Below are positions 26,597-42,450 of a DNA stretch of 46,934 bases, piece by piece. The DNA comes from Actinomycetota bacterium (GTDB taxonomy: Bacteria; Actinomycetota; Actinomycetes; Streptosporangiales; Streptosporangiaceae): the NCBI GenBank assembly GCA_027306495.1, contig DAHUZQ010000066.1, positions 1 through 46,934 of the forward strand. The letters are read 5' to 3'. The notes under the pieces were generated by a model. That model saw nothing but the letters and a program-made list of their open reading frames with translations, searched no databases and was not told the DNA's origin. Each line of letters opens with the position of its first letter. Position 1 is the first letter of the stretch. Both the position numbers and the translations under genes were made by a program.

Positions 26597-26621
26597 GCTT
26601 CCTCCTGGGTCGGGTGTGCGG

Positions 26622-27731
26622 TCAGCGGCGCGGGACAGCTTCGATCGCGCTTTCGGGGTGCCCGGCCCGCTCGGGCGGTGGGTGGACGGCCGCGACGCTG
26701 AAGCCATTGCGGTCCAGCAGGGAGAGGTACTCCTGCCGGGTGCGGTCACAGCCCGAGAGCATGAGCAGGATCAGCAGGTCGCCCACCGTGCCGCCGGCCC
26801 CGGTGCGCCCCGCGCCCTCCAGCAGTTCCTCCAGCACGATGAGCCGCCCATGCCCGCCCATGGCGTCGCGGACGCGGCCGAGCACCCGGCTGGCGTCCTC
26901 GTCCCCCCAGTTGTGCAGGACCCGGCACAGCACGTACACGTCCGCGCCGGGCGGGAGCGGGCCGAAGAAACTGCCCTCCACGAATTCGACCCGCTCCGCG
27001 AGGCCCGCCGTGGTCAGCCGCGCCCTGGCCTGCGCGACCGCCAGCGGGAGGTCCACCAGCACACCGCGGGCACCCCGGTTGGTCCGCAGCACCCGGTTGA
27101 GCAGGCGCCCGTTGCCGCCGCCTATGTCGGCGATGATGCGGGCTGCGCTCAGATCACACTCCGACAGCGAGGCTGGGACCGGGGCCTCCCCCATGGCCGC
27201 CGAGAAGGTGCGGGCCGCCTCCGGACTGCCGTCGAGGTAGTCATAGAACGGCCGCCCGTAAGCCTTGTCGAAGGCGGGCTGGCCGGTCCGCAAGGTATAG
27301 ACGATGTCCGCGAAGGACCGGAAGACTTCCTCACCGAACATGATGGCGGCGTCATGACTGGAGCGGGGCGCCGACGCGGCGAGCGGCGCGGACACCGGGG
27401 TCAGCCCGAACACCCCGGGAACGGCCTCGGCCACCAGGCCGGCCGCGGCCAGCGCCCGCAGCATCCGGCTCAGCGCGCGGGCATCGGTCCCCGACGCCCC
27501 GGCCAGGTCCGCGACCGGCCGTGGGCCGGCTGCCATCAGGTCAGCCAGGCCCAGCTTGGCCAGCGCGTAGCAGCCCTGGGCCAGCCAGGTCGCGGTCAGG
27601 ATCTCGTGCAGCCGTGCCCGGTCGGCGGCGGCTGGCGCCGGGGGCGGGCCGCTCGCCGCGGCGGACCGGTCCGGCCCGGCTCCCGCTGAACCGCCGCCGC
27701 TCGCCGCGGCCGGCTGGCCTGTCCCGGTCAT
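26622..27731 (-). CDS. SAM-dependent O-methyltransferase (plant-type family 2)
   Basis: A 369-residue methyltransferase with a Gly/Ala/Pro-rich N-terminal tail of about 35 residues. The dimerisation domain has ATWLAQGCYALAKLGLADLM and SGTDARALSRMLRALAAAGL. The SAM site is IADIGGGNGRLLNRVLRTN, followed by GVLVDLPLAVAQARARL, and the Motif IV-like region VLHNWGDEDASRVLGRVRDA. These are the family 2 features used by O-methyltransferases acting on phenols and hydroxyls of antibiotics. A likely job is to methylate the phenol of the aryl unit or another hydroxyl. It starts at ATG 27731, overlapping the SGNH gene by 4 bases. Confidence 0.88.
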   Translation of the reverse strand: MTGTGQPAAASGGGSAGAGPDRSAAASGPPPAPAAADRARLHEILTATWLAQGCYALAKLGLADLMAAGPRPVADLAGASGTDARALSRMLRALAAAGLVAEAVPGVFGLTPVSAPLAASAPRSSHDAAIMFGEEVFRSFADIVYTLRTGQPAFDKAYGRPFYDYLDGSPEAARTFSAAMGEAPVPASLSECDLSAARIIADIGGGNGRLLNRVLRTNRGARGVLVDLPLAVAQARARLTTAGLAERVEFVEGSFFGPLPPGADVYVLCRVLHNWGDEDASRVLGRVRDAMGGHGRLIVLEELLEGAGRTGAGGTVGDLLILLMLSGCDRTRQEYLSLLDRNGFSVAAVHPPPERAGHPESAIEAVPRR

Positions 27732-28423
27732 GGCGCCGGCTCCCGGCCCATGGCGTCCAGGTGAGCGCCCAGCCGCCGGATCGCCTCCGCCGCGGCGATC
27801 GCGTGCCCACGCATCGTCCCGTGCCGGGTGTCGCCGCTGTAGAGATCGGCCTGCGACGAGGCGGGGTGACTGGTCAACTCGACGTGGAGGGTGCCGAACT
27901 CCGCCGCGATGACGGCGAGCCGGCATCCGAAGTCCCGCAGCCGCTCGCCCAGCCGCCTGCCGTAAGCGGCGGGCACGCCCGGCGCCCGGGAACGGTCGAA
28001 CGGGCCGGCCGTGATCACCTGTGCCCCGGCATGCGACAGGGCCGCGACGATCTCCCGCACCCGCGCCTCCACCACCTCCGCGTCGTAAGAGAAGCCCAGC
28101 AGGTCATAACCGCCGCAGGCGACCAGCGCCAGATCCGGCCGGAACTCCAGGGCCGGGGGAAGCTGACTGCGCGCCACCTCCGCCGCCGGGGTGTCGCGCA
28201 CGCCGAGGTTCCGGTAGGCCAGCCCTGGCCTGGCAAGCGACAGTTCGTGGGCGATCCGGTCGCACCAGGGCTGATCGGGGTAGCCCGGGGAGGGATCGCC
28301 GAGCCCCTCCGCGATGCTGTCGCCCATCGCCACGAACCGCTGCCAGGGATGTCCCCGCAGCAGGCGGCGCGCCTCTCCCTCCCGCAGGCACCACGGGTCA
28401 AGGGCCTCGGCTGTCACGCTCAC
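27728..28423 (-). CDS. SGNH/GDSL hydrolase
   Basis: A 231-residue protein of the SGNH hydrolase superfamily. Block I is FVAMGDSIAEGLGD with Ser 36, block II RNLGVRDT, block III ACGGYDLL, where the conserved Asn is Tyr 106, and block V SGDTRHGTMRGH with the Asp/His pair. The GGYD in place of GGND loses one oxyanion-hole residue, so esterase activity may be altered. No signal peptide is visible, so it acts in the cytosol, perhaps as an esterase, thioesterase or acyl transferase on a cluster intermediate. It overlaps both neighbours by 4 bases (E1 beta and the methyltransferase). Confidence 0.82.
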   Translation of the reverse strand: MSVTAEALDPWCLREGEARRLLRGHPWQRFVAMGDSIAEGLGDPSPGYPDQPWCDRIAHELSLARPGLAYRNLGVRDTPAAEVARSQLPPALEFRPDLALVACGGYDLLGFSYDAEVVEARVREIVAALSHAGAQVITAGPFDRSRAPGVPAAYGRRLGERLRDFGCRLAVIAAEFGTLHVELTSHPASSQADLYSGDTRHGTMRGHAIAAAEAIRRLGAHLDAMGREPAP

Positions 28424-29382
28424 TTCATCACCGACCGGATCGCTGATACCAGGGCGGCGCGGGCTGGCTGCACAGCCCGGTCCAGGCCCAGCGCGAACGG
28501 CAGCACCGACCCGTCCGGGCGGGTCACCCGGGCGGGCGGGGCGATCAGCCGCATGCCTTCGGCCGCGCTCGCCAGCACCTCGCCGGCCAGCCCACAGGAG
28601 CGGTTCGAGTCATCCATCACCACCAGGCGCCCGGTGCGCTCCAGCGAATCGGCCAGCGCGGGCCAGTCGAACGGGTACACCGTCCTGGGATCGAACACCT
28701 CCACGGAGACCTCGCCCGCGAGTTCACCGGCGGCGGCGAGCGCCTCGTGGACCAGGTGACCGACCGCGACGCAGGTGACGTCGGTACCCGCCCGGTGGAT
28801 GCGCGCCCGGCCGATGGGCACCGGGACGAGGTCCCGCGTCACGTCCTCCCTGACCCCCATCGCCCCGGCCGGCGCGAACACCACCGTCGGATCGTCTGAC
28901 CGGATCGCCGACACCAGCAGGCCGTAGGCGTCCGACGGCATGGCGGGCACGACCGTTGTCACCCCGACATGGGCGTAGATGCTGTAGGGGTGGTCGGAGT
29001 GCTGGCCCGCCCAGCCCTCCCGTGAGCCGGAACCGGGCACCACGTAGGTCACCGGCACCGCCACCTGGCCACCGGTCATCAGCGGGAACTTGTGTGCCTG
29101 GTTGGCGATCTGCTCCAGCACCAGGAAGAGCAGCGATGGGATCTGGAACTCGATGACCGGCCGCATGCCGCACAGCGCCGCGCCGGTCGCCAGGCTGGTG
29201 AAGGCCTGCTCGGAGATCGGTGTGTCCATCACCCGGCCCGGCCCGAACTGGGCCTGCAGCCCGAGCGTGAGCTGGGCCATCCCGGCACCCACGTCCTCAC
29301 CCAGGACGCACACCGACTCGTCCCGCGTGAGTTCGTCGCGCAGCGCCCGGTTCAGCGCCTTGGCATAGGAGAGCTTGGCCAT
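28420..29382 (-). CDS. E1 beta subunit of a 2-oxoacid dehydrogenase-like enzyme
   Basis: A 320-residue protein of the transketolase-like beta class. It starts MAKLSYAKALNRALRDEL, then CVLGEDVG, MDTPISEQAFTSLATGAAL and VVFAPAGAMG, which match the pyrimidine-binding half of E1 beta (the Glu in ISEQ activates TPP). The C-terminal part has VEVFDPRTVYPFDW, the normal E1 beta swivel domain. It shares a TGATG junction with E1 alpha. With no lipoyl E2 or E3 gene in the cluster, the acyl acceptor is open: CoA through a remote E2, or a carrier protein. PglB/PglC of phenylglycine pathways are E1-like pairs of this kind. Confidence 0.9.
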   Translation of the reverse strand: MAKLSYAKALNRALRDELTRDESVCVLGEDVGAGMAQLTLGLQAQFGPGRVMDTPISEQAFTSLATGAALCGMRPVIEFQIPSLLFLVLEQIANQAHKFPLMTGGQVAVPVTYVVPGSGSREGWAGQHSDHPYSIYAHVGVTTVVPAMPSDAYGLLVSAIRSDDPTVVFAPAGAMGVREDVTRDLVPVPIGRARIHRAGTDVTCVAVGHLVHEALAAAGELAGEVSVEVFDPRTVYPFDWPALADSLERTGRLVVMDDSNRSCGLAGEVLASAAEGMRLIAPPARVTRPDGSVLPFALGLDRAVQPARAALVSAIRSVMK

Positions 29383-30362
29383 CACCCCTCCCCTCCCCGG
29401 CCGCGCATGCCGCTGGCGTACAGGTAATCGAGCGCATCCGCCGGGTCCGGGTGGGGGCTGGCGAGCGCGAACTCCCGCGCCGCGGCGAGGATGGCGGCAG
29501 CCCGGGCATCCGCCTCCTCCCGCTCCTGCGGGGTGATCCGGGCTGCCTGGATGACCAGCGGGTCCCGCAGCCGCCACCGCTCGACCTCCTCCGCCGGCCG
29601 GTAGCTCAGCCGGATCCGCTGTTCCATCGTGTGGTGCGGCCCGAACCGGTAGGTGAGGCATTCCAGGAACGACGGGCCCGCCCCGGCGCGTGCCCGCTCC
29701 ACGGCCGCCGCCGCTGCCGAGCGGATGTCGACGGCATCCATCCCGTCAACCGTCTCGCCGGGGATGCCGAAACCCTGGGCGCGTGCCACCGCCGACCCGG
29801 CCAGCCCCGTCGATATCGGCATCGTGGTGGCGTATCCGTTGTTCTCGCACACGAAGATGACCGGCAGTTTCCACAGCGAGGCCAGGTTCATGGTCTCCAG
29901 CAGGACCCCTTGATTGAGGCCCCCGTCACCGAAGAAGGTCACCACCACCCGGCCCGAACGTGCCCGCTGGGACGCCCAGGCGGCCCCGGCGGCGATCGGC
30001 GCCGCCGCACCCACGATGGCGTTGGCACCGAGGATTCCGAGGCCCACGTCGGCCGCGTGCATGGATCCGCCGCGGCCGGCGTTCAGGCCAGTCGTGCGCC
30101 CGGCCAGTTCAGCGAGCATCCGTGCCGGGTCGGCCCCCTTGGCCAGCACGTGGCCGTGGCCACGATGAGTGCTGGTGATCAGGTCATCGTCGGCCAAGGC
30201 GGCGCACACCCCCACCGCGACAGCTTCCTCCCCGATGTAGGGGTGGATACCGCCGACAATGTCTCCCGACTTGACCAGCCGCAGAGCGGTTTCCTCGAAC
30301 TCCCGGATCAGCCGCATGCGCCCATACAGTTCGGCGGGGGTGTTCAGCGAGCGGGTCATCAC
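29382..30362 (-). CDS. E1 alpha subunit of a 2-oxoacid dehydrogenase-like enzyme
   Basis: A 326-residue protein with the TPP-pyrophosphate motif GDGGLNQG (residues 145-152) ending at NN (174-175), the hallmark GDG...NN. The acyl-acceptor-side motif RGGSMHAAD (97-105) and STHRGHGH (64-71) are present as in E1 alpha of the pyruvate, acetoin and branched-chain complexes. It decarboxylates a 2-oxoacid to an activated acyl-TPP. In this cluster the likely 2-oxoacids are 4-hydroxybenzoylformate (from HmO) or an arylpyruvate. The lack of E2/E3 and the two ACP genes suggest, but do not prove, transfer to a carrier protein. The stop overlaps the E1 beta start by one base. Confidence 0.9.
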   Translation of the reverse strand: MMTRSLNTPAELYGRMRLIREFEETALRLVKSGDIVGGIHPYIGEEAVAVGVCAALADDDLITSTHRGHGHVLAKGADPARMLAELAGRTTGLNAGRGGSMHAADVGLGILGANAIVGAAAPIAAGAAWASQRARSGRVVVTFFGDGGLNQGVLLETMNLASLWKLPVIFVCENNGYATTMPISTGLAGSAVARAQGFGIPGETVDGMDAVDIRSAAAAAVERARAGAGPSFLECLTYRFGPHHTMEQRIRLSYRPAEEVERWRLRDPLVIQAARITPQEREEADARAAAILAAAREFALASPHPDPADALDYLYASGMRGRGGEG

Positions 30363-30384
30363 ATCGCTCCTGCTGCCGGCGCTG

Positions 30385-31290
30385 CTACGCCGACCACAGC
30401 ACTGGGCAGAAGTCGGGATCGGCGTAATCCGGCTTCCCGTCCGGGGTCTTGCGGACCAGCGTGTCGTGGTTGTAGGTGAGCAGGCTGCCGTCCGGGCGGT
30501 GGTAGGGGCGCCACGCGTTCTCCCCGTCCTGCAGGTGCAGCGAAATGGCGCGGCGGGGCCGGTCGCTGACGTTGTGACCGCTGCCGTGGTAAATGCGGCA
30601 GTGATGGAAGCTCATATGACCTTTGGGGATCTCCATCGGGATCGAATTCACTTCGGCGCCGTTGGCCTGCGCGGTCTGACGCAGGATCGACTCCAGTTCG
30701 CTGCGGTCACGGCGGGCGAAGTGGCGGGTCGAATCGTCGCCCTCGATCTCCTTCCACAGATGGCTGCCGTCGATCATGGTGATCGTCCCCATCTCCACGC
30801 CGCAGTCGTGGCAGGGGATGAACGCGGTGAGCATCGCCTCTGAGGTGCAGGTCTGCCAGTAGTGCCGGTCCATGTGCCAGGGGACGAGGTTGGTGACCTC
30901 ACCCGGCGTGGGCGGCTTGTATATCAGGGTGGACTGGAACACCCTGATCTGGCTTGCCTGCGCCAGCCGCGCGGCCACCGCCCCGATCACCGGCTTGAGC
31001 AGGATCGCGGCAATGGCCGCACTCTCATAGTGGACGTAGTCGTTGTGCCGTTGCACCGGCCCCTGGGAGGGCTCCCAGTAGGCCAGGTTGGGGGGCCGGG
31101 ACGGCAGGTCACGGGCCCGTTCCCCGGCGTAGAACCCCTCACTGGCCTCGACCAGCGCATCCACCTCGGCGTCGGTGAAAAGCCGTTTGGACAGATACCA
31201 CCCGTGCTCGGCGTACCCACGCACGTCCTCTTCGGAGGGGAGCAGGTCAGGGTCCACCTGGGGCATTCCGGCGATCGTGGTCACGGTCAT
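30385..31290 (-). CDS. PhyH-type Fe(II)/2-oxoglutarate dioxygenase
   Basis: A 301-residue protein of the phytanoyl-CoA dioxygenase family. The iron site is His 139 and Asp 141 (VPWHMDRHYW) with the distal His 235 (IYHGSGHN), and Arg 246/247 in DRPRRAIS can bind 2-oxoglutarate. Other parts fit the jelly-roll: FIPCHDCGVEMGTITMIDGS and GHMSFHHCR. Such enzymes hydroxylate CoA- or ACP-bound acyl chains or free amino acids; in clusters they often hydroxylate at the beta position. Its stop is 22 bases before E1 alpha and its start overlaps HmaS by 4 bases, so it is in the core of the operon. Confidence 0.9.
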   Translation of the reverse strand: MTVTTIAGMPQVDPDLLPSEEDVRGYAEHGWYLSKRLFTDAEVDALVEASEGFYAGERARDLPSRPPNLAYWEPSQGPVQRHNDYVHYESAAIAAILLKPVIGAVAARLAQASQIRVFQSTLIYKPPTPGEVTNLVPWHMDRHYWQTCTSEAMLTAFIPCHDCGVEMGTITMIDGSHLWKEIEGDDSTRHFARRDRSELESILRQTAQANGAEVNSIPMEIPKGHMSFHHCRIYHGSGHNVSDRPRRAISLHLQDGENAWRPYHRPDGSLLTYNHDTLVRKTPDGKPDYADPDFCPVLWSA

Positions 31291-32339
31291 CCTCTCTCTC
31301 CGGCCAGTGCCTCATACAGGGACTTGATGTTGCTGGTGCCGAACGTGAGCGCCCCCCGCCGCTCGATGAGCTCGAAGAAGAACGTCCGCCGCTCGTGGGT
31401 GGAGACCGCGAATATCTGGAACAGTTCCCCCCACCTGTCCCGGTCGGCGAGGATGTGCAGGCCCGCGAGTTCGGGAACCGGCACCGAGAGGCCCCCGAGC
31501 CGGCCCGGCAGTGCCCGGTAGTACTCGGGTGGGGTCACCAGGAAGTGCACGCCCCGGCTTGCCGCGGACCGCACCGCCTGCCTGATGTCGGTGGTCCGCA
31601 GCGCGACGTGCTGGACTCCCGCCCCGCCGTGCTCGCGCAGGAAGTCATCGATCTGCCCGGGTTCGCGGGTCACGTCGGGCTCGAGGATGGTGAAAGTGGC
31701 TTCCCGCGCCGGATCCTGGACGACCTTCGACATCATCGCCTGCCCGCCGACCTCGATCCGTTCCTCGAAGACCTCGGCCAGCCCGAAGGCCTGCTGATAG
31801 AGCCGCACCGTGGGGATGAGCTCACCGGCTGGCAGGATCAGCGCCAGATGGTCGATCGTCTCCAGCAGGCCGTCATCGGCCTGCTGGGGGCGCGACATGG
31901 TGATGTGGCCCGGCCAGAAGTCATCCGCCGGCCCGCTGCGCTCGACGAAGCTGTGCAGCACATCACCGAAACCGGTCACCGCCGCCATGCCGACCCGGCT
32001 TCCCGCGGATTCCGCGTAGGCCGGCGGGCTGACCCCGGTCACCGGCCCCCCGACCACCTCGGCGTAGGCGGCACGCACATCGTCGGTCCGCAGGGCGACA
32101 ACGGCGACCCCGTCGCCGTGCCGGCGCACATACTCGCCGGCCGGACTGCCCGGCGGCCCGGAGGTTATTAAGAGCTGGATACGGCCCTTGCGCAGGAGCA
32201 GCGACCGGTGTGCAGCCGTTTCGCCGGAGGGCTCACTGCGCCCGTGGACCGCGAACCCATACGCGTGCTGCCAGGAGTTCGCACAGCTCTCCGGATCGGA
32301 TACGTAGAACTCGACGTGGTCGATGCCCTGGATCTTCAT
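31287..32339 (-). CDS. hmaS: 4-Hydroxymandelate synthase (HmaS-like; HPPD family)
   Basis: A 350-residue two-VOC-domain protein of the 4-hydroxyphenylpyruvate dioxygenase family. Iron ligands are His 164 (IDHLAL), His 244 (VQHVAL) and Glu 323 (FFFELIERRGA); the end is FGTSNIKSLYEALAGERG. HPPD makes homogentisate, HmaS makes 4-hydroxymandelate from the same substrate. I choose HmaS because the hydroxymandelate oxidase and HpgT genes are in the same operon and no other tyrosine-catabolism gene is present. Sequence alone cannot settle this. The protein overlaps the dioxygenase gene by 4 bases. Confidence 0.83.
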   Translation of the reverse strand: MKIQGIDHVEFYVSDPESCANSWQHAYGFAVHGRSEPSGETAAHRSLLLRKGRIQLLITSGPPGSPAGEYVRRHGDGVAVVALRTDDVRAAYAEVVGGPVTGVSPPAYAESAGSRVGMAAVTGFGDVLHSFVERSGPADDFWPGHITMSRPQQADDGLLETIDHLALILPAGELIPTVRLYQQAFGLAEVFEERIEVGGQAMMSKVVQDPAREATFTILEPDVTREPGQIDDFLREHGGAGVQHVALRTTDIRQAVRSAASRGVHFLVTPPEYYRALPGRLGGLSVPVPELAGLHILADRDRWGELFQIFAVSTHERRTFFFELIERRGALTFGTSNIKSLYEALAGERG

Positions 32340-32380
32340 TGGTCCTTCATCCCTTTCACTGCCTTGGGAGGTGCGCCTGG

Positions 32381-33661
32381 TCAGCCGGCGAGCCGCACCT
32401 CCCGCTGCCGGGCGGTGCTCGCCCGGCCGAAGAGCAAGCTGACGTTGTGCCCGCCGAAAGCGAACGAGTTCGACAGAGCCACCTCAACCCGCCCCCGTCG
32501 CGCCTGCCCCCGGACGTGATCCAGGGCGCATTCCGGGTCGGGATCGGCCAGGTTGCCGGTGGGCGGCAGCAGCCCGCCACACACGGCGAGCGCGCTCGCG
32601 GCCGCCTCCACCGCACCGGAGGCGCCGAGCATGTGGCCGGTCACCGCCTTGATCGAGCTGACCGCCGGCCCGCCGTCACCGAACACCGCCCGGATGGCTG
32701 CGGCCTCGGCCACATCGCCCCGCTTGGTGGCGGTCCCGTGCGCGTTGACGTAACCGACGTCGGACGGCGCCAGGCCCGCCGTGGCCAGCGCCATCCGCAT
32801 GCACGCCGCCGCCCCCTCGCCGTCCGGCCTGGGCATCGTCGGATGGAAGGCGTCAGTGGTGGCACCCCACCCGATGATGTCGGCATAGGCGCCGCGGCCG
32901 CGGGCATCGGCATGCCCCGTCCGCTCCACGACGAAGATCCCCGCCCCTTCGCCGAGCACGAAGCCGTTGCGCCGCTTGTCGAATGGGCGGCTCGCGTGCG
33001 CCGGGTCGTCCCAGCCACGGGCCAGCGCCCGGGCATTGCCGAACGCGGCCGCGATGGTCGGGTGCAGTGGCGACTCCGTTCCACCACACACGACCACGTC
33101 GGCCTCACCGCCCTTGATCAGCCGGTACGCCTCGGCTACCGCGTGCGCGCCCGCCGCGCAGGCGGTGACGGGGGTGGAACTGAACCCCCGGATGCCATAT
33201 TTGATGGCGATCCGGGCCGTCGCCATGTTGAAGAGCATCCCGGGGAGCAGATAGGGGCTGACGGCCGCGCGGCCCCTGGCCAGCCGGGCAGCCGCGGCGT
33301 GCTCGAAGGTCTCGAGCCCGCCGCCGCCGGTGGCGACGACGACCGCGACCCGGGCCGGATCAACGTCCCGGCCCACCTCCAGGCCGGCGTCGGACAGCGC
33401 GTCAGCGGCCGCTGCCATGGCGAGCACGATGAAGCGGTCGACCATGCGGGTCTCGGTGGGGGGCATGACACTGGCCGGGTCGATCTGCGGGGAGAATCCA
33501 GCGACCTCGAGGTCCAGCGCCACCGGGTGGGTCTCCGGCGGCCGGCGCAGGCCGGAGCGGGCCTCGCACAGACCGCCGAAGACCTCCGCGACGTCCCGCC
33601 CGAGGGGCGTGACCAGCCCGATGCCCGTGATCGCGGCGCCGTCGCCACCTTGTGCAGTCAT
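32381..33661 (-). CDS. FabF-type ketosynthase (canonical Cys-His-His)
   Basis: A 426-residue beta-ketoacyl synthase. The nucleophile Cys 168 sits in TPVTACAAGAHAV, His 308 in VNAHGTATKRGD, Lys 338 and His 343 in SSIKAVTGHMLGASG, and the C-terminal FGGHNVSLLF loop closes the active site. All FabF catalytic residues are intact. It should condense a carrier-bound acyl group with a malonyl-type unit. It lies directly upstream of HmaS and downstream of a ligase. With the second ketosynthase (35980-37125) and the ketosynthase-N-like protein it forms a set resembling aryl polyene and type II PKS systems. No malonyl transferase is in the window, so it would rely on FabD. Confidence 0.9.
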   Translation of the reverse strand: MTAQGGDGAAITGIGLVTPLGRDVAEVFGGLCEARSGLRRPPETHPVALDLEVAGFSPQIDPASVMPPTETRMVDRFIVLAMAAAADALSDAGLEVGRDVDPARVAVVVATGGGGLETFEHAAAARLARGRAAVSPYLLPGMLFNMATARIAIKYGIRGFSSTPVTACAAGAHAVAEAYRLIKGGEADVVVCGGTESPLHPTIAAAFGNARALARGWDDPAHASRPFDKRRNGFVLGEGAGIFVVERTGHADARGRGAYADIIGWGATTDAFHPTMPRPDGEGAAACMRMALATAGLAPSDVGYVNAHGTATKRGDVAEAAAIRAVFGDGGPAVSSIKAVTGHMLGASGAVEAAASALAVCGGLLPPTGNLADPDPECALDHVRGQARRGRVEVALSNSFAFGGHNVSLLFGRASTARQREVRLAG

Positions 33662-33707
33662 TGTCACCCGCCTTTGCATGGCCAGCCTGTGTCCCAACCC
33701 GGCCGCA

Positions 33708-35327
33708 TCACCGGCTGGCGCCGGCACGGTGGCGTTCCCGCAGGACGAACTTGCGGACCTTGCCGGTCGCGGTGAACGGCAGCGCGGAATCGTCGATGAG
33801 CCGGACCTCACGCAGCGTGGCGGCCACCGCCGGCTCCAGCGCGGCGGCGATCGGCGCGGTGTAGTCGGCGGTGCGGTCCGCACCCGCGGCGAGTTGCACC
33901 AGCACGTCGGTGACCACCCGGCCGGTGGCCTGCGGGACCGCCACGACGGTGCAATCCAGCACCTGCGGGCACGCACGCAGGATGGCTTCCTCGCTGGCGG
34001 CGGTGTGCAGCTGGGATCCGTTGCCGAGGTCGATCGTGTCCACCTTGCGGTCCAGGTGGTAGTAGTAGCCCTCCTCGTCGCGGTAGACCAGGTCACCGGT
34101 GAGGAAGTAACCCTGGAACCGGGTCCGGTACGTGGCGGCCGAGTCGTTCCAGTAGCCGAGCGAGAGCGTGGGGGAACGGGTGCCGAGTTCGCCGATCTCG
34201 CCCGCCGGGAGTTGCTCGCCGTCCGGGCCGAACACGGCCACCTCGGCGAAGGAGTGCGGGCGCCCGATGCACCTGCCGTAGCGGTTGGTCTGCGGCGTGT
34301 GCGCGATGTGGAAGTGCGAATGCCCCATCTCGCTCGACCCCAGCCCGTCCACGAAGACCGACCCGGACACGCGCTGCCTGCCGGAAGGTCCCAGGGTCTC
34401 GTGGCTCCCCAGGGAAACCAGCTGCCGGATGTGGGACTCGTGGGCGCAGTCGCCGGTGTTCCACCACAGCGCGACCGAACTCACGTCCGCGTCGGCGACG
34501 CCGGCCTTGACCAGGTCGGGCCAGGTGGCCGAGAAGCCGATGACGCTGCGTGGCCGCCAGCGCTCGATTGCGGCGAGCGTGCCGGTCCCGTCCTGCCCGG
34601 ACAGCATGAGCGCTTCGCCACCGTTGGCTATGGCGAGGTTGATGGTGATGATCCCGGCCGCGTGCGCCGGCGGCATCGCACTCAGCATCCGCTCCGAGCC
34701 CTGCGGGCGTGGCAGCGCGAGCCGGTACCGGATCGCCGCGAAGAGGCTGGCGTGCGAGTGCACCACCGCCTTGGGCACCCCTGTCGTCCCCGAGGAATGG
34801 GTGATCGCCACCGGATCTGACGGGTAGTACACGTAGGGATCGCCGGCCGCATCCGGATCCCCGGCCGCCAGATCGGCGAAGTCCGCCAGCAGCGGGGTGC
34901 CGGTATCGTGCTCGGCCAGCATCTGCGCGTGTGCCCGGTCGGTGATCAGGCCCACGGCCCGCAGCCGGGTCAGGTACGGGACCAGGTAATCAACTGCCAC
35001 TCCGGGGTTGATCAGCGCCGGGATGGCACCCAGGCGGGTCAGCGCGAGGAACGTCAGCGCTGTGTCGGCAGCCGTCGCGGCGCAGACCGCGACCGGGTCG
35101 CGCCGCCGGATCCCAAGGCCCCGCAGGGCCGCGGCACGCGCGCGGGTGAGCCGGTCGAGGTCGGATGTGGTCAGTGGCTCCCAGGCGGCATGGCCACCGC
35201 AGGCGGTATCGAAGGTGAGGACCGGCTCAGCAAGCCGCTCTCCCCATGCCAGCAGGGTTGTCAGCACATTGCCCGCCCCGACGTCGCCGTCGGTGGCCAG
35301 GCGTGCCCGCAGGTTCTTGGTCGCCAT
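33708..35327 (-). CDS. Adenylate-forming ligase (ANL superfamily)
   Basis: A 539-residue ligase with THSSGTTGVPKAVVHSHASL as the phosphate loop, DGLGSSEMGHSHFH at the position of the A5 motif, GYFLTGDLVYRDEEGYYYHL for the hinge, and Lys in PFTATGKVRKFVLRERH. It should form an acyl-adenylate and then a thioester with CoA or an ACP. The A5 region (SSEMGHSHF) is unusual, so the acid may not be a common fatty acid; an aryl acid or arylglycine is possible. GGTGAG lies before the ATG at 35327. It sits 11 bases after the ketosynthase-N-like gene, on the same transcript. Confidence 0.88.
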   Translation of the reverse strand: MATKNLRARLATDGDVGAGNVLTTLLAWGERLAEPVLTFDTACGGHAAWEPLTTSDLDRLTRARAAALRGLGIRRRDPVAVCAATAADTALTFLALTRLGAIPALINPGVAVDYLVPYLTRLRAVGLITDRAHAQMLAEHDTGTPLLADFADLAAGDPDAAGDPYVYYPSDPVAITHSSGTTGVPKAVVHSHASLFAAIRYRLALPRPQGSERMLSAMPPAHAAGIITINLAIANGGEALMLSGQDGTGTLAAIERWRPRSVIGFSATWPDLVKAGVADADVSSVALWWNTGDCAHESHIRQLVSLGSHETLGPSGRQRVSGSVFVDGLGSSEMGHSHFHIAHTPQTNRYGRCIGRPHSFAEVAVFGPDGEQLPAGEIGELGTRSPTLSLGYWNDSAATYRTRFQGYFLTGDLVYRDEEGYYYHLDRKVDTIDLGNGSQLHTAASEEAILRACPQVLDCTVVAVPQATGRVVTDVLVQLAAGADRTADYTAPIAAALEPAVAATLREVRLIDDSALPFTATGKVRKFVLRERHRAGASR

Positions 35328-35338
35328 GACAGCTCACC

Positions 35339-35983
35339 TCATCCGTTCTGAATCGGGGGCGGGATAACCGCGGCAACCGGCGGCGGCCAGGATTCCGGCC
35401 CCGCAAGCAGCGCGCGGGCGTAACCGGCCTCACTGTCCGTCCGCGCCTGGGTGGCGATCACGATCAGCACGGCGTCGGTGTCGCCGTCGTCAATGAGCAG
35501 TTCCGCGCTCACCCAGGCGTCGGCCAGCGCGTCGAGACGGGGAATGGTGCACAGCACCGGGCCGCCCAGGCCCCACCGAGCGGCGATGTGGCCGGCGACG
35601 GCGTTGTGATTGGACTGGAAGAACAGCAGCGGCGGAACCCGCCGACCGTGATCGACGGCGTCGGCCACGGCGGCGGCGGTCCCCACGTCACCGGTCGCGC
35701 TGGCCACCAGAATGCCGGTGCGCCCTCCCCGGGCCGGATCGGCGGGCGGCTCCCCGAAGTAGGACCGCAGGCACCGGTTCGCCACCTCTGCCACCAGCGG
35801 GCTGAACGAGGAGGTCACGAATCCGGGAATGCCCGGCAGGACGTCGCCCGGCAGCTGCGGCCAGCAAGCTTCCGCGAGAACCACCGGGTCTCCCCGCGCA
35901 TCGGTGCCCGCTGGTGGGCCGGCCGGCCGGGCCCGCGTGTCCGGGGCCGCGCCCTCGCCGGAGGCGATCACGGGGCTTGTCAT
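35339..35983 (-). CDS. Ketosynthase N-terminal-like protein (PF13723 type, chain-length-factor-like)
   Basis: A 214-residue protein resembling the stand-alone 'beta-ketoacyl synthase, N-terminal' proteins of aryl polyene clusters. Recognisable parts are GFVTSSFSPLVAEVANRCLR, RTGILVASATGDV and FFQSNHNAVAGHIAARWGLG, then GPVLCTIPRLDALADAW and DAVLIVIAT. It has no catalytic Cys-His-His set and is too short for a full ketosynthase. It may act as a scaffold or chain-length partner to the adjoining ketosynthase, whose stop it overlaps by 4 bases. The exact function of this family is poorly known. Confidence 0.75.
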   Translation of the reverse strand: MTSPVIASGEGAAPDTRARPAGPPAGTDARGDPVVLAEACWPQLPGDVLPGIPGFVTSSFSPLVAEVANRCLRSYFGEPPADPARGGRTGILVASATGDVGTAAAVADAVDHGRRVPPLLFFQSNHNAVAGHIAARWGLGGPVLCTIPRLDALADAWVSAELLIDDGDTDAVLIVIATQARTDSEAGYARALLAGPESWPPPVAAVIPPPIQNG

Positions 35984-37125
35984 GCCGCCTGCACCACCAG
36001 TGCCGTGTTCGCGCCACCGAAGGCGGCGTTGACGGACAGCGCGTAGCGCGACCGCGCTGGCCTTGGCCCGCCGAGCACCAGGTCCAGTTCACACTCCGGA
36101 TCGGGGCCGAGGTAGCCGGCGTTGACGGGCAGGCTGCCCGACGCCATCACGGTGATCGTGACGGCGAACTCGAGCAGGCCGGATGCCTCAAGAGCGTGGC
36201 CGTGCAGCGATTTGGTGGAACTGACGGGGACCTGGCCGGCCGCACTGCCCAGAGCCAGGCGCAGCGCGGCGGCCTCCGCCCGGTCGCTCGCCGGCGTGCC
36301 CGTGCCATTGGCGTTGACGTAGCCGATGTCATCGGGGGTGAGATGCGCGCGGGCCAGGGCCGAGGTGATGGCACGCGCGAGGCCCGCGCCGTCGGGACGC
36401 GGATCGCAGACGTGATAGGCGTCCCCGGCCCGCCCCCAGCCGACCAGGGTGGCCAGCACCCGGGCGTCCCGGCGCTGTGCCCGCGTGCCCGACTCCAGCA
36501 CGACGGCGGCGATCCCATCGCCGAGCAGCATGCCCTTGCGGCCGGCGCTGAACGGGCGCACCCGCCCGTCACCGGCGAGCGCCCGCCCGGCGTCGAAGAG
36601 CCAGAAACTGTCCTGGTCCACCAGATAGCCGGCGGCCACGCTCACCCGGTCTGCCCCGCCACGGCTGATCATCGCGGCCGCGTCCGCGATCGCGCTGGTC
36701 GCCGCCACGCACGCCGTCGCGTAGATCCGGGGCGGCTTGCTCAGCCCGCACATCGCAGCCACCGTGTCCGCGGTGCCGCCGCAGATGTGCGGCGCGGCCG
36801 GGTCACGCGCCGCGGCGGCGTCGGAGTGAAGCGCCACCAGCAACGTGCATTGCGCCCGCTCGCCCGGGCTCAGCCCGGCGCAGGCGGCGGCGTCCGCCAC
36901 GACCGCGGCGATTTCCTGGGCGAGCCGGGGCGAACCCGGCAGCGTCGCCGCCACGTTCACCCGGCAGCGCTCCGTGCCGAAGCGCGTCACTTCCGCGAAC
37001 CCGGCGGTCCCCGAGGCCAGCGCCGTGGCCAACGGGCCGACGCCCCGGCCGAACGCGGAGGTCACGCCCAGCCCGGTGATCACCACCCGGTCGGGCGTGC
37101 CCGCCAGCGCGGCCTGATCAGGCAT
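35980..37125 (-). CDS. Ketosynthase with Cys-Asn-His active site
   Basis: A 381-residue ketosynthase, about 30 residues shorter than FabF. The Cys 139 nucleophile is in IYATACVAATSA. The first catalytic His of NAHGT is Asn 273 (NANGTGTPASD; codon AAT), while Lys 305 and His 310 (SSTKSLHGHALEASG) are kept. The C-terminal loop is FGGANTAL. It may condense by a different mechanism, need only the Cys for acyl transfer, or act as a partner or chain-length factor. It overlaps the ACP gene by 8 bases and the ketosynthase-N-like gene by 4, so these three are made together. Confidence 0.87.
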   Translation of the reverse strand: MPDQAALAGTPDRVVITGLGVTSAFGRGVGPLATALASGTAGFAEVTRFGTERCRVNVAATLPGSPRLAQEIAAVVADAAACAGLSPGERAQCTLLVALHSDAAAARDPAAPHICGGTADTVAAMCGLSKPPRIYATACVAATSAIADAAAMISRGGADRVSVAAGYLVDQDSFWLFDAGRALAGDGRVRPFSAGRKGMLLGDGIAAVVLESGTRAQRRDARVLATLVGWGRAGDAYHVCDPRPDGAGLARAITSALARAHLTPDDIGYVNANGTGTPASDRAEAAALRLALGSAAGQVPVSSTKSLHGHALEASGLLEFAVTITVMASGSLPVNAGYLGPDPECELDLVLGGPRPARSRYALSVNAAFGGANTALVVQAA

Positions 37126-37360
37126 GGCCCGCCCCAGCGAGCGCGGCCCTGATGCCCGCCACCGCCGTCGTGACGGTCGTCATCGCGGCGAGATCCTCAT
37201 CGCTCAGGTCGAGCATGGTGCCGTACTCCTGCTCGACCTTGGTGATGAGCCAGGTCAGCTCCAGCGACCCGATCTGCTCGGCTACCTCACCGGCGCTGCG
37301 ATCACCGAAGGCGGCGAGCATCGCGATGACGTCCGCCCGGTCCGGCGGGGGCAGGCTCAT
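37118..37360 (-). CDS. Acyl carrier protein, with GSL in place of DSL
   Basis: An 80-residue carrier protein: MSLPPPDRADVIAMLAAFGD then EVAEQIGSLELTWLITKVEQ, with the probable phosphopantetheine Ser 32 inside IGSLEL and the C-terminal helix DLAAMTTVTTAVAGI. The Asp that usually precedes the Ser is Gly, so recognition by the phosphopantetheinyl transferase may differ. I choose ATG 37360 because it overlaps the ACP2 stop by 4 bases and gives a normal ACP length. The next gene (ketosynthase) starts 8 bases inside it. It should carry acyl or aryl groups for the ligases and ketosynthases. Confidence 0.8.
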   Translation of the reverse strand: MSLPPPDRADVIAMLAAFGDRSAGEVAEQIGSLELTWLITKVEQEYGTMLDLSDEDLAAMTTVTTAVAGIRAALAGAGHA

Positions 37361-37626
37361 GCGCTCGCGCCCCCGCTGGCCAGGGCACACCGCTTGGCCA
37401 CTTCGGCGGCGAACTCATCGAGGGTCATCAGTGCGAGCGCTTCGGTGTCCTCATCGGTGAACTTCACGCCGAACTTGTCCTCGACCTGGACCGCCAGTTC
37501 GGCGACGGCGAGCGACTCAAGGTCCAGCCCGGCCGGCCCGAGGTCAGTGTCCCCGGCCACCTCGCTGACGTCGTAGTTCATCGCCGCCAGCGCTCCGACC
37601 ACGAACTCGCGGATCTCGTCCTCCAT
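37357..37626 (-). CDS. Acyl carrier protein
   Basis: An 89-residue carrier protein with a normal ACP pattern: MEDEIREFVVGALAAMNYDV, the attachment site GLDLESLAVAEL with Ser 38, then VQVEDKFGVKFTDEDTEALA. It has Glu, not Asp, before the Ser, a tolerated variant in some ACPs. ATG 37626 has AGGAAGGGAG upstream. It is followed by ACP1 with a 4-base overlap; the pair probably carries different groups, for example starter and extender, or one acts with the E1 enzyme and one with the ketosynthases. That division is inference. Confidence 0.88.
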   Translation of the reverse strand: MEDEIREFVVGALAAMNYDVSEVAGDTDLGPAGLDLESLAVAELAVQVEDKFGVKFTDEDTEALALMTLDEFAAEVAKRCALASGGASA

Positions 37627-37716
37627 CAGCTGAGCTCCCTTCCTGTGTTCATGGCGTGCCGGTGGGCCGCCACGGTCTTTGCGGGGAATCGCCGCCGGCG
37701 CCAGCCGGCCTCACCC

Positions 37717-39177
37717 TCACGTCTCCACCCCGGCGTTTGCGCTGGCGTGAGCCCGCAGCACGGCGCGATCCCGGACGATCTTGCCGGTGGCTGTCCGCGG
37801 CATCTCCGCGAGGACATGCCAGTGCCGCGGCCGCTTGTAGGGCGCGATGCGCTCGGGCAGCGCCGCCTGCACGTCCGCAAGCGACGCGCCGTCACTGAGC
37901 ACCAGATACGCCCCGATCGCACCGTCGAAATCCAGGACGGCGGTCGCGACCTGCGGCAGCGCGGCGATCGTCTGCTCGACCTCGGTGAGATCGACCTTGA
38001 GCCCGCCGATGGACACCTGCGAATCAAGCCGGCCGAGAACGGTGACCAGGCCGGTGGCCTCGTCCAGCGCGGCGGCATCGCGGGTATGCAGCCAGCCGTC
38101 ATGCCACCGCGTCGGGTCCACCAGGCCGATGTAGGGCGAGGCTGCTGTCTTGACCAGCAGTTCGCCGTCCTGGACCCGCAGCGTCATGCCGGGGGCCGCA
38201 GTGACCGCGGGCCACAGGCGGCCGGTCAGGTCGGTGGCGATGACCCCGCGCTCGGTCATCCCGTACATGGTGCCGAGCGGAACGCCGTAAGCACGGCTCA
38301 GCGCCTCGGGCACCCCCGGCCGCACCAGTTCCCCGGCGACCACCATCTTGCTCAACTGCGGCAGCGCCGGACCGGGCGCGGCGGCGAGCAGTTCTGCGTG
38401 GAACGGGACGCCGAGCACCATGGTGGGCCGCTCGCCCCGGGCTACCGCCGCCCGGATGCCCTCTGCTGTCACCCGGTCCGGGAAGACCAGTTCGATCCCC
38501 GCGTGCAGGCTGTGCAGCAGACCTCCCACCAGCCCGAGCACGTGCACGATCGAGGCCAGCAGCACGATGCGGGTGCCTGCGCCGGGGTAGCCGGCAAGCT
38601 CGCGATAGCGGTCCAGTTCGGCCGTCAGGTCATCGGCCGCCCGGGCGATGACCTTGGACGGGCCGGTCGATCCGGAGCTGAGCTGGATGAGCGCGTGCGG
38701 GGTCGCGGCTGGCAGGCCGTCGGGGAGGCGCCGCGCCTCCCGCTGCACGACGGCATACCCGGCCATGGCAGGACTGCTCACCGTCACTGGCTCGACCAGG
38801 ACCTGCGGGCGCAGCCGGTCCAGCGCCCGTTCGATCTCGCGGGTGGCCAGCCGATGGTCGAGCAGGCTCACCTGGGCGCCCAGCCGCCACCCGGCAAGCA
38901 GGTCGGCCACAAAGGCGAGGGACGGCGGCACGTGCAGCGAGAGGGTTCCACCCGCTCCCAGTCCGGCGGCGGCGAGGTCATCGGCGTGCCGGTCCACCAG
39001 CCCCCGCAGTTCGCCCCGGGTGACGGGACCGCCCATCCAGAGGGCGGCGTCATCGTCGCTGCCCGCCAGCAGCCATTCGCCGACCCATTGTCCGGGAGCC
39101 GCGGGCGCCGCCGCCGCAACAGGCCCACGTCTCCCGGTTGCGGGAAGAAGATGGCCGGATGTGCCCTCGATTGTCAT
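37717..39177 (-). CDS. Adenylate-forming acyl ligase (ANL superfamily)
   Basis: A 486-residue ligase, on the short side for the family. The phosphate loop is LSSGSTGPSKVIARAADDL, the A5-type motif TMYGMTERGVIATDL, the hinge VLGRLDSQVSIGGLKVDLTE and the catalytic Lys in PRTATGKIVRDRAV. It resembles small acyl-CoA/acyl-ACP ligases of aryl polyene and other clusters. It is the first gene after the 177-base gap (39178-39354), and ACP2 follows 91 bases later. A TTGACC box (39253-39258, minus strand) is in that gap, but no good -10 accompanies it. Start chosen at ATG 39177 (MTIEGTSG), because the upstream frame lacks family resemblance. The substrate is unknown; an aryl acid is plausible. Confidence 0.87.
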   Translation of the reverse strand: MTIEGTSGHLLPATGRRGPVAAAAPAAPGQWVGEWLLAGSDDDAALWMGGPVTRGELRGLVDRHADDLAAAGLGAGGTLSLHVPPSLAFVADLLAGWRLGAQVSLLDHRLATREIERALDRLRPQVLVEPVTVSSPAMAGYAVVQREARRLPDGLPAATPHALIQLSSGSTGPSKVIARAADDLTAELDRYRELAGYPGAGTRIVLLASIVHVLGLVGGLLHSLHAGIELVFPDRVTAEGIRAAVARGERPTMVLGVPFHAELLAAAPGPALPQLSKMVVAGELVRPGVPEALSRAYGVPLGTMYGMTERGVIATDLTGRLWPAVTAAPGMTLRVQDGELLVKTAASPYIGLVDPTRWHDGWLHTRDAAALDEATGLVTVLGRLDSQVSIGGLKVDLTEVEQTIAALPQVATAVLDFDGAIGAYLVLSDGASLADVQAALPERIAPYKRPRHWHVLAEMPRTATGKIVRDRAVLRAHASANAGVET

Positions 39178-39354: not shown

Positions 39355-41073
39355 CTACAGCGCGAGGCCCGCGACTCGGACAGCGAAGCCCTCCGGCCCG
39401 CCCGGGAACTGGTTGATGTACTGGATAACCCCGCCGGTCCAGGTCGGGAACCCGGCCCACGCGAGCGACAGCAGGTTAGCCCAGGCAACCGATGGCACCC
39501 GGCCGGCTGACAGGCAGCGCAGTGCCTGCGCCGCCGCCGAGCAGAGCAGCCGCTCCTGCACACCCGCGAAGTCAGGGCGCACGCTGCCGGATCCGAAAGC
39601 CTCCCGCAGGCCCGGCCACAGGCGGTCCTGCTCGCCCCGGGAGCCATAGCAGTAGAACCCGCCACCCGAACCGGCTCCGTGACGGCCGAACTCCTTCGCC
39701 ATGCGGGTCATCACGGCGCCGCCCCGCGAACCGTGCAGGCTCGCGGCCACCGCGCCGTCCCCCGCCGCCGGCTCCCCCGCGGCCGGCCCGCCCGGCGGCA
39801 GCGCCCCGGCAGCCATGGCGGCGGCCACGGTCAGGCCGATCTCGTCGGCGAGGGTGAGCGGGGTCCAGGTGAAGCCCGCCTGGGCGGCTGCCTGCTCGAC
39901 CGTCGCGGGCTCCACGCCCTCGCCCACCATCGCGGCCGCCTCAGCGAGGTAGGCGCCGAGCACCGGGCGCACGAAGCTGCCCGCCCACGTTCCCGGCTCC
40001 GCCAGCGCACGCCGCTGCCCGCGGGTATCGCTTCCGTCCACCGGGTTCACCGGTGGGAGCCACGCCAGCGAGGGAGCTCGCGGGCTCGTGGAACCGCCCC
40101 GGCCGGGCCCGCTCAGGGCGCCCGCCACCGCCCCGGATCGGGCTCCGGCAGACCCATCCCACAGGCCGGGCAGATCGACGTCGTAGATCCTCGTCAGGTT
40201 CGTGGCGGCCTGGCCGGAAGCCAGCCGGACGAAATACCGGGCCTCGATCAGGGCCGCGTTGTCGATATCCACCTGCGCCCCCTCCACGGCGGCCGCGAGG
40301 ATGGCACGCGACGCCGGCGCCGGGGCACCACGCACATTCGCCCGCAGCGCCGAGGGCAGGACCGGCAAGGCGGAGGCCAGCATGGCACCGTAGGGCGCGC
40401 CACCGGGGATCTGGTATCCGGCAGTGTCCCAGGGCTGCGGGGGGCAGTCGCGGTGGCGCAGTGCCCAGGCGGCCGCGTGGTCGGCCAGCCCGCTGGCGGG
40501 CACCACCTCGTCCACCAGGCCCAGCGCGAGCGCCTGCTCCGGGGTGTGGAGCGCTCCGGTGAGCAGCAGGTCGGACAGCGCCCGGGCGATACCCAGCAGC
40601 CGCACCGCACGGACCAGCCCGCCCGCCGCGGGCAGCAGGCCCAGCCTGACCTCCGGCATACCGAGCCCGATCCCCGGCGCGTCGGCCGCGATCCGGTGCT
40701 GGCACGCCAGCGCGATCGCCAGCCCGCCGCCGAGCGCGGTCCCGTTGCTGGCGGCCACCACCGGGCGGCCGAGCCGTTCCAGCCGCCGGAGCTGGCCCGC
40801 CAGTTCGCGGGTGGCCGTGGTGAGGGCCGCCGGGTCACCGTCCGCAGCCATGACGGCGCCGGTGTCCGGGCCCGCGAAGAAGGACTCCTTCCCCGAGGTG
40901 ATCACCACTCCCGTGATGTGGTCGCGCTCCGCTTCGAGCCTGTCCAGGACCGCCGCCATGCAGGCGCGGTAGGCGGCGCTGAACGTGTTGCCCACGCGGC
41001 CGGGCTCGTCCAGGACCAGGGCGACGATCCCGTCCGGACGGTGCTCCCACCGGATGGCCGGGGCCTCAGGCAT
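39355..41073 (-). CDS. FadB-like protein: enoyl-CoA hydratase fused to 3HCDH C-terminal domain, NAD domain missing
   Basis: A 572-residue protein. Residues 1-200 are a crotonase domain (VIYTSGKE-like VVITSGKESFFAGPD, GTALGGGLAIALAC, MPEVRLGLLPAAGG). Glu 141 is present, but the other hydratase Glu (119 in FadB) is Ala 119 here. Residues 270-300 match the FadB helix before the Rossmann domain (ALIEARYFVRLASGQAATNL). Then, in place of GxGxxG and the roughly 180-residue NAD domain, there are about 60 Gly/Ser/Ala/Pro-rich residues (305-365), and the 3HCDH C-terminal domain follows (SFVRPVLGAYLAEAA, residues 366 on). So it cannot be a normal hydratase/dehydrogenase. An enoyl isomerase or thioester-binding scaffold is possible. 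It ends 9 bases after the thiolase. Confidence 0.85.
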   Translation of the reverse strand: MPEAPAIRWEHRPDGIVALVLDEPGRVGNTFSAAYRACMAAVLDRLEAERDHITGVVITSGKESFFAGPDTGAVMAADGDPAALTTATRELAGQLRRLERLGRPVVAASNGTALGGGLAIALACQHRIAADAPGIGLGMPEVRLGLLPAAGGLVRAVRLLGIARALSDLLLTGALHTPEQALALGLVDEVVPASGLADHAAAWALRHRDCPPQPWDTAGYQIPGGAPYGAMLASALPVLPSALRANVRGAPAPASRAILAAAVEGAQVDIDNAALIEARYFVRLASGQAATNLTRIYDVDLPGLWDGSAGARSGAVAGALSGPGRGGSTSPRAPSLAWLPPVNPVDGSDTRGQRRALAEPGTWAGSFVRPVLGAYLAEAAAMVGEGVEPATVEQAAAQAGFTWTPLTLADEIGLTVAAAMAAGALPPGGPAAGEPAAGDGAVAASLHGSRGGAVMTRMAKEFGRHGAGSGGGFYCYGSRGEQDRLWPGLREAFGSGSVRPDFAGVQERLLCSAAAQALRCLSAGRVPSVAWANLLSLAWAGFPTWTGGVIQYINQFPGGPEGFAVRVAGLAL

Positions 41074-41082
41074 GCCGGCCCC

Positions 41083-42294
41083 TCACACCCGCTCGATGAT
41101 CGTCGCAATGCCCATCCCGCCGCCGATACACAGCGAGACCAGCGCGCGGCGGGCGGACCGGCGCTCCAGTTCGTCCACCATGGTTCCGAGGATCATCGCG
41201 CCGGTGGCACCGAGCGGATGGCCCATGGCGAGCGCGCCGCCGTTGACGTTGACCTTGTCCTCGGGCAATTTCAGGTCGCGCATCCACTTGAGCACCACCG
41301 CTGCGAACGCCTCGTTGAGCTCGAACAGGTCGATATCGCCGGCGGTCAGCCCGGCCACCTCCAGCACCTTGCGGGTCGCGGGGGTGGGACCGGTCAGCAT
41401 GATGGTCGGCTCGGATCCAGCGACCGCCGCGGCGACGATCCGGGCCCGCGGCACCAGGCCCAGGTCAGCGCTCGCGCGCTGCGAGCCGACGAGCACCAGG
41501 GCGGCGCCGTCCACGATGCCCGATGAATTCCCGGCCGTATGGACGTGGTTGATCCGCTCCACCCAGTGGTACTTCTGCAGGGCCACCGCGTCGTATCCGG
41601 CGGCGGCGCCGGTACCGGCGAAAGCGGGCGGCAGGGCGGCCAGCGCCGACGCTGTGGTGCCCGGACGGCGGTGCTCGTCGCGATCGAGCACCCTCACACC
41701 GTTCAGGTCCCGGACTCCGATCACCGACCGGCGGAAATACCCCCCGGACCAGGCGGTCTCGGCGCGCCGCTGCGAGCGCAGCGCGAACGCGTCGACGTCC
41801 TCGCGGCTGAACCCCTCCAGGGTCGCGATCAGATCCGCGCTGACACCCTGGGGCACGAAGTAGGTGTCGTAGGCGGTGGCGGGATCGTTCGCCATCGCGC
41901 CGCCGTCGGACATCATCGGGACGCGGGACATCGACTCCACGCCGCCCGCGACGATCAGGGATTCCCAGCCCGAACGGACCCGCGCCGCGGCCTGGTTGAC
42001 AGCTTCGAGGCCGGAGGAGCAGAACCGGTTGAGCTGCACTCCCGGAACGGACTGGCCCAAGCCCGCCACGAGCGCCGCGATCCGGGCGATGTCGCCCCCC
42101 TGGTCGGCTACCGGGGACACCACCCCGAGTATCACGTCGTCGATAGCCGCGCGATCGAGGGTGGGATGGCGGGCCAGCAGTTCCCGCAGCAGGCCAGCGA
42201 CCAGGTCAATGGGTTTGATCGCGTGCAGAGACCCGTTCTTCTGTTTACCCCGGGGGGTCCGGATGGCGTCGTAAATGTATGCTTCCGTGCCCAC
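41083..42294 (-). CDS. Acetyl-CoA acyltransferase (thiolase, FadA-like)
   Basis: A 403-residue thiolase. The acyl Cys is in [12 protein letters not shown], and [20 protein letters not shown] and CIGGGMG carry the catalytic His and second Cys. All residues are intact. It should cleave 3-oxoacyl-CoA with CoA, or, less often, condense acyl-CoAs. With the FadB-like protein next to it (9 bases on), the pair resembles a beta-oxidation module that may shorten a side chain or work on an aryl-propionyl-type thioester. It starts with GTG 42294; AGGAAGG lies 7 bases upstream. A promoter with a near-palindrome starts the transcript. It is the first gene of the cluster. Confidence 0.9.
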
Positions 42295-42329: not shown

Positions 42330-42357
42330 AAACTAGGGCCATTGTCAGTGGTGTCAA
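42330..42357 (-). promoter_or_regulatory. Sigma-70-type promoter of the thiolase/FadB-like unit
   Basis: On the minus strand TTGACA (42352-42357), a 16-base spacer and TAGTTT (42330-42335) fit a vegetative promoter. Transcription should begin near 42322, about 28 bases before the GTG at 42294. The spacer holds a near-palindrome, listed separately. Confidence 0.65.
42339..42351. promoter_or_regulatory. Possible operator between -35 and -10 of the thiolase promoter
   Basis: CCACTGACAATGG (minus strand) is a 13-base near-palindrome: arms CCACTG and CAATGG differ from perfect symmetry by one base. A protein bound here would block the promoter, as TetR- or FadR-type repressors do. Which regulator is not evident. 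Confidence 0.4.
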
Positions 42358-42403
42358 GGGGCCGGCTGAATAGCCAGGGCGGCCACGACCGCGGCGATCC
42401 CAC

Positions 42404-42450
42404 AGCGGCCAAGGCCCGCGACGGCGTCGCCGTCGCGGGCCTTGGCCGCT
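42404..42450 (-). terminator. Very strong hairpin after peroxiredoxin gene
   Basis: A perfect 22-base-pair stem (42404-42425 with 42429-42450) with a GTC loop lies 12 bases past the peroxiredoxin stop. It should end that transcript before the thiolase promoter. Confidence 0.8.

Follow-up and report, generated by a model that had tools for sequence, protein, structure and literature searches.

The window, by which we mean the whole 46,934-nt stretch of DNA analysed here, carries on its minus strand a short FadB-like gene directly behind a thiolase gene and, beyond these two, a biosynthetic gene cluster. The features to which we refer below are as follows.

39355..41073, minus strand: FadB-like alpha chain of a trifunctional enzyme (TFE) without NAD domain, 572 aa (open reading frame, Pfam, PDB alignment, anchor spacing, AlphaFold2, Foldseek)
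40456..41061, minus strand: crotonase (ECH) core, domain A, residues 5-206 (Pfam ECH_1, conserved columns, pLDDT mostly above 90)
40717..40719, minus strand: Ala119 (GCG), in place of the water-activating Glu119 of all full-length homologues (alignment; role from PMC11301753 and PMC13126182)
40651..40653, minus strand: Glu141, the kept catalytic glutamate, at the position of rat ECH Glu164 (alignment)
40162..40455, minus strand: helical segment to helix-10 (domain B), residues 207-304 (12 of 13 invariant columns kept; helices in the AlphaFold2 model)
39982..40149, minus strand: linker in place of NAD domain C, residues 309-364, rich in Gly, Ser, Ala and Pro and predicted disordered (PDB alignment, spacing, pLDDT below 50 at 307-360)
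39358..39981, minus strand: 3HCDH C-terminal tandem (domains D/E), residues 365-572 (Pfam, PDB alignment, pLDDT mostly about 90, 31 of 43 invariant columns kept)
41083..42294, minus strand: FadA-type thiolase with catalytic Cys/His/Cys intact; GTG start inferred at 42294, mechanical ORF start at 42357 (NCBIfam PRK08242, motifs, tree)
37717..39177, minus strand: AMP-binding ligase, first gene of the neighbouring cluster, 178 nt downstream of fadB and outside the fadA-fadB pair (Pfam, related clusters)
21834-39177, minus strand: type II PKS/arylglycine-like biosynthetic cluster with ketosynthases, two ACPs and two ligases (Pfam and names given by eye)

The 572-residue protein follows the plan of a FadB alpha chain, with an N-terminal crotonase (Pfam ECH_1 at 14-206, 7e-30) and a C-terminal 3HCDH tandem (match at 367-475, 2e-9), and Pfam finds no 3HCDH_N match in it, nor anything else between these two domains. 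Its best sequence relative in the PDB is the Mycobacterium tuberculosis TFE (MtTFE) alpha chain FadB (2.5e-113), to which residues 6-308 align at 21-330 and residues 365-562 at 524-707; the alignment skips about 193 residues of the MtTFE chain, and 56 residues of the window protein sit between the aligned blocks. The skipped part is domain C, the flexible NAD domain of MtTFE (PMC11301753). The two anchors that flank it (residues 304 and 365) are 60 residues apart in the window protein compared with 197 in all 44 canonical actinobacterial FadBs, which bears out the claim, first made from the sequence alone, that the NAD domain is absent and that some 60 Gly/Ser/Ala/Pro-rich, here predicted disordered, residues stand in its place. 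The NAD-domain motifs GxGxxG, SNTS and HFFSP are missing from the protein, a search of six frames found no NAD-domain remnant in the linker, and no detached NAD domain was found elsewhere in the window. By its sequence, then, the product is a Mycobacterium-type TFE alpha chain in which crotonase A/B is joined to D/E and domain C has been lost.

The same comparison settles the state of the catalytic residues. The catalytic glutamates of MtTFE are Glu-alpha119 and Glu-alpha141, with numbering identical to that of the window protein (PMC11301753), and in crotonases the first (Glu144) activates water while the second (Glu164) protonates C2 (PMC13126182). Position 119 is Glu in 52 of the 53 homologues in which the column is filled and Ala in the window protein alone, and Glu141 is present in all aligned homologues, the window protein included. 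The substitution seen in the sequence-only reading is thus real, although the family motif that it had taken to be GGGCE is properly GGG(L/Y/F)E. With the water-activating glutamate replaced, the protein is probably not a hydratase, as had been suspected. Dehydrogenation is impossible: of the residues lining the MtTFE dehydrogenase site (Ser441, His462 and Ser512; PMC11301753), the first two went with the NAD domain and the third aligns to Arg369. Enoyl-CoA isomerases (ECIs), on the other hand, rely on a single catalytic Glu, which one class places at the ECH Glu164 position (PMC13126182), so the suggestion that a single-Glu crotonase may be an isomerase agrees with the glutamate that was kept. 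An A119/E141 pair would therefore be expected to form an isomerase-like rather than a hydratase-like site.

The predicted structure also agrees with a FadB origin. An AlphaFold2 model built from an alignment of 21 locus proteins has a mean pLDDT of 80.6, with the crotonase and D/E parts mostly at about 90 or above and residues 307-360 below 50. The best 37 PDB matches in Foldseek are all MtTFE alpha chains, the leading ones with a TM-score of about 0.79 by query length, which indicates that both remaining parts are predicted in the FadB fold and in roughly the arrangement that they have in the complete enzyme. The rmsd to the MtTFE alpha chain is near 10 A, probably because one domain is missing and the linker is loose.

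Our best explanation, held tentatively and at somewhat less than even confidence, is that this protein belongs as alpha chain to an MtTFE-type fadA-fadB pair, that it has lost domain C and Glu119, and that it serves as a scaffold on the thiolase and possibly as a single-Glu isomerase. An old in-frame deletion would have removed domain C, the NAD-binding dehydrogenase module, and the water-activating Glu119 would also have been lost. The remaining A/B-D/E body would fold in the TFE arrangement and dock on the thiolase dimer, where its primary task would be to help FadA assemble. Glu141 and the oxyanion-hole segment are still present in the crotonase pocket, which would bind acyl-CoA and could carry out no more than enolate chemistry with a single Glu, the simplest case being delta3,delta2-enoyl-CoA isomerisation. 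The hydration and dehydrogenation steps would then fall to other proteins of the genome, for which there are nine further crotonase loci and a separate two-module 3-hydroxyacyl-CoA dehydrogenase on contig C197; a search of the genome contigs found only distant crotonases. The C197 protein (L180:8064-9776, plus strand, G000:C197) is a stand-alone 3-hydroxyacyl-CoA dehydrogenase whose complete NAD and C-terminal module precedes a second one that is degenerate. The D/E part may have been retained because helix-10 of the crotonase needs it. Rat MFE1, in the account of Kiema 2002 given in PMC5715344, keeps full hydratase activity without domain C and loses it without D/E, on which helix-10 packs, suggesting that domain C can be dropped while D/E is obligatory.

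How well this explanation holds depends on what has been conserved. In the crotonase core the window protein keeps 19 of 21 invariant columns, 40 of 46 nearly invariant columns and 21 of 72 variable ones, and the only invariant residues changed are E119A and H125Q, the latter beside the catalytic helix. The D/E invariant columns are kept less completely (14 of 22 in HADC1 and 17 of 21 in the remainder); several of the lost ones lie in the domain-C hinge and several others outside it. As judged from these columns, purifying selection on the crotonase core is clear, and the pattern appears to favour a retained crotonase pocket, though it is compatible with partial relaxation. This bears on whether the alpha chain might have no catalysis left at all and be kept only for the assembly or stability of the FadA thiolase, which we regard as unlikely. 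Such a role would suit a thiolase that is catalytically complete and evolving normally next to an alpha chain without Glu119 and dehydrogenase, and TFE alpha chains do assemble onto a thiolase beta2 core (PMC11301753). It would not lead one to expect that the crotonase columns, among them Glu141 and the GGG motif of the oxyanion hole, are conserved more fully than the D/E half, or that the crotonase branch is shorter than that of D/E (0.80 compared with 1.34), both of which point to a retained pocket.

Just as unlikely is a gene in decay, in which selection was relaxed after the deletion and the rarity of stops in GC-rich DNA has left the frame open. The terminal branch of the window protein in the FadB tree is very long (1.58 compared with a median of 0.075), which counts against our preferred explanation too in that it is expected under relaxed selection, as do the more eroded D/E half and H125Q. 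Long spurious ORFs are common in the window DNA, several invariant D/E positions have changed outside the hinge, and the gene is the sole fadB of a 3.38 Mb genome that is 91% complete. Against decay, the changes have avoided the conserved crotonase positions, GC at third codon positions is at least 0.85 along the gene with the coding GC pattern kept outside the linker, the reading frame is unbroken and closely linked to that of an intact thiolase, and the model gives a confident fold.

The thiolase itself is ordinary. It scores 669 bits against NCBIfam PRK08242 (cut-off 514), carries the motifs NRFCSSG, GHP and CIGGG, which confirms the earlier impression of an intact thiolase next door, and stops 10 nt before the start of the FadB-like frame. 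It is 67-76% identical to most canonical thiolases (62% to the most distant, 76% to that of genome G569), its branch of 0.23 is of normal length, and it lies directly upstream of fadB, as is usual in the canonical actinobacterial loci that we read. At about 42390-42450 on the minus strand, in the stretch that separates the AhpC-like gene from the thiolase, we noticed a near-perfect long GC-rich inverted repeat followed by a TTGACA-like motif; a consensus scan called neither.

The cluster downstream encodes two AMP ligases, two ACPs, ketosynthases, a hydroxymandelate-synthase-like enzyme (HMS; this name and that of the ACPs were assigned by eye), PhyH and E1 alpha/beta, and further an FMN dehydrogenase, an aminotransferase and an O-methyltransferase. 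The sequence-only reading had placed fadB within this biosynthetic operon, and one could suppose that the protein is a recruited tailoring enzyme of the type II PKS/arylglycine-like cluster, in which the single Glu catalyses an isomerisation or some other reaction on a thioester. The two lie on the same strand, 178 nt apart, and no promoter- or terminator-like site was found on the coding strand between fadB and the first cluster gene. Related clusters in G418, G326 and G465 share the ligase, ACPs, ketosynthases, HMS and PhyH, with the E1 genes in G418 and G326, and partial relatives occur in G589 and G558, yet in the 20-40 kb read none of the five has a fadB or FadA-type thiolase beside it. 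The pair is therefore a neighbour that lies outside the conserved core of the cluster, and in order and descent it is an ordinary fadA-fadB pair, so that a tailoring role seems quite improbable and operon membership is not supported. Late recruitment of the pair into the cluster is possible but unsupported.

We also asked where else the dehydrogenase has been lost. A FadB-type C-terminal match occurs in 10 of 343 genomes of the same family, and the short frame only in that of the window; the other nine FadBs are all full-length frames, and the motifs of six more were checked. Within the family, then, the deletion is not shared, but homologues that have lost the dehydrogenase do exist in another actinobacterial family, f19. 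In its genus g131, FadBs of three genomes have the NAD domain deleted, with 22 residues between the anchors (L091 in G340, L092 in G530, L122/L177 in G419), and those of four retain a degenerate one (L093-L095 in G330, G550 and G359, L109/L178 in G377). Among the degenerate FadBs, SNTS and the His of HFFSP are both lost in three, and L109 has SGTA with the His kept, so that this group looks like an intermediate stage of loss. The hinge from domain C to D, RGFFTSRV without exception in 44 canonical FadBs, is AGSFVRPV in the window protein and likewise changed to FV in six of these seven f19 FadBs with a deleted or degenerate NAD domain. As the hinge has changed, the whole chain has diverged and dehydrogenase loss exists elsewhere, it is extremely unlikely that faulty assembly or sequencing removed the NAD domain from a normal fadB, even in a genome of 252 contigs and with every other FadB of the family full-length, the more so as the 60-residue in-frame linker resembles no NAD-domain sequence and Glu119Ala accompanies it. 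The damaged gene or assembly error that the sequence-only reading had raised as a counter-case is accordingly improbable, for residues that contact the domain have changed along with it and NAD-less or NAD-degenerate homologues occur in another family. The only large-subunit TFE gene of this genome has truly lost one enzyme module and half of the catalytic pair of the other.

Other reduced FadBs were met in the same searches. L014 (1480-2997, plus strand) and L015, considered as shared truncations, were rejected; they are FadB-type crotonase domains of 505-526 aa with a different C-terminal part, cupin-like by eye, and their second catalytic Glu is replaced (LPDAD). The opposite reduction is seen in L088 (5117-5725, minus strand), L089 (8269-8886, plus strand) and L090 (8300-8926, plus strand), FadB-like frames of 467-560 aa that keep NAD and D/E and have the crotonase domain almost entirely deleted.

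The f19 FadBs with a deleted or degenerate NAD domain keep both hydratase glutamates, and the thiolases that adjoin them have lost both catalytic Cys: NRFCASG has become SRLGASG, NRIGASG or NRLDTSG, and CIGGG has become SAGAG, SAAAG or GSAAG. In the two f19 loci that were examined closely, the neighbouring genes in common encode an alpha/beta-hydrolase-like protein, a CoA-transferase III and a short-chain dehydrogenase. Thiolase-fold aldolases complexed with a hydratase are described for steroid side-chain degradation (Ltp2/ChsH and Sal/Shy, as outlined in PMC12329534 and PMC11321319), and by analogy the f19 pairs are possible candidates for a complex of a hydratase with a Cys-less, retro-aldolase-like thiolase. 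This reading is testable because a hydratase-aldolase needs no dehydrogenase.

The combined FadB tree gives no support to common descent of the window deletion with that of the f19 clade and does not reject it either (p 0.22), and the D/E half alone groups with the f19 NAD-lost clade (SH-aLRT 96); the crotonase half is nearest to G569 instead, and the thiolase tree rejects common descent of the window pair with the f19 NAD-lost pairs (p 3e-27). Both of these disfavour a deletion shared by descent. The D/E grouping would then be convergence after the loss of domain-C contacts, with some residual doubt, and we have moderate confidence in at least two independent dehydrogenase losses with convergent surface change. 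Dehydrogenase loss from FadB is not unique to the window protein. A wider proposal, possible but on the doubtful side, is that TFE alpha chains repeatedly shed the dehydrogenase and keep crotonase and D/E, to become in the window a thiolase-docked single-Glu isomerase or acyl-CoA-binding subunit and in f19 a hydratase paired with a Cys-less thiolase that is possibly a retro-aldolase, a complex with no need to oxidise the beta-hydroxyacyl-CoA.

We found no report of a FadB without NAD domain in the open papers, an absence that counts only weakly towards novelty. Trifunctional enzymes serve as models for how substrates are channelled among three active sites, and an alpha chain that in nature lacks the middle site and stands next to a complete thiolase, together with a parallel clade in staged loss, offers test objects for a non-catalytic scaffold role. 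A FadB annotation alone is no guarantee of beta-oxidation capacity. The f19 clade with its Cys-less thiolases may be a more interesting discovery than the window gene.

Among known systems, the MtTFE alpha chain FadB (PDB 4b3h, 7o1l, 7o4t) is closest in both sequence and fold and has the crotonase, helix-10 and D/E domains in common with the window protein, Glu141 included; the window protein differs from it in having no domain C (and so no Ser441 or His462), Arg for Ser512, Ala for Glu119, and a low-complexity linker. ECIs, to our knowledge, have no D/E module and do not descend from FadB, in which they differ from the window protein. What they share with it is the crotonase fold with one catalytic Glu, located in one class of ECIs at the ECH Glu164 position, here Glu141 (PMC13126182). 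Rat peroxisomal MFE1 without domain C (Kiema 2002, as cited in PMC5715344) likewise joins crotonase to D/E with no NAD domain, and the window protein is best read by analogy as a natural counterpart of that experimental deletion, which is man-made, has both glutamates, and belongs to a monomeric enzyme with no thiolase partner. The f19/g131 FadB clade resembles the window protein in dehydrogenase loss, adjoining thiolase and altered hinge, and shows the opposite pattern in its active sites, with both hydratase glutamates kept and both thiolase cysteines lost.
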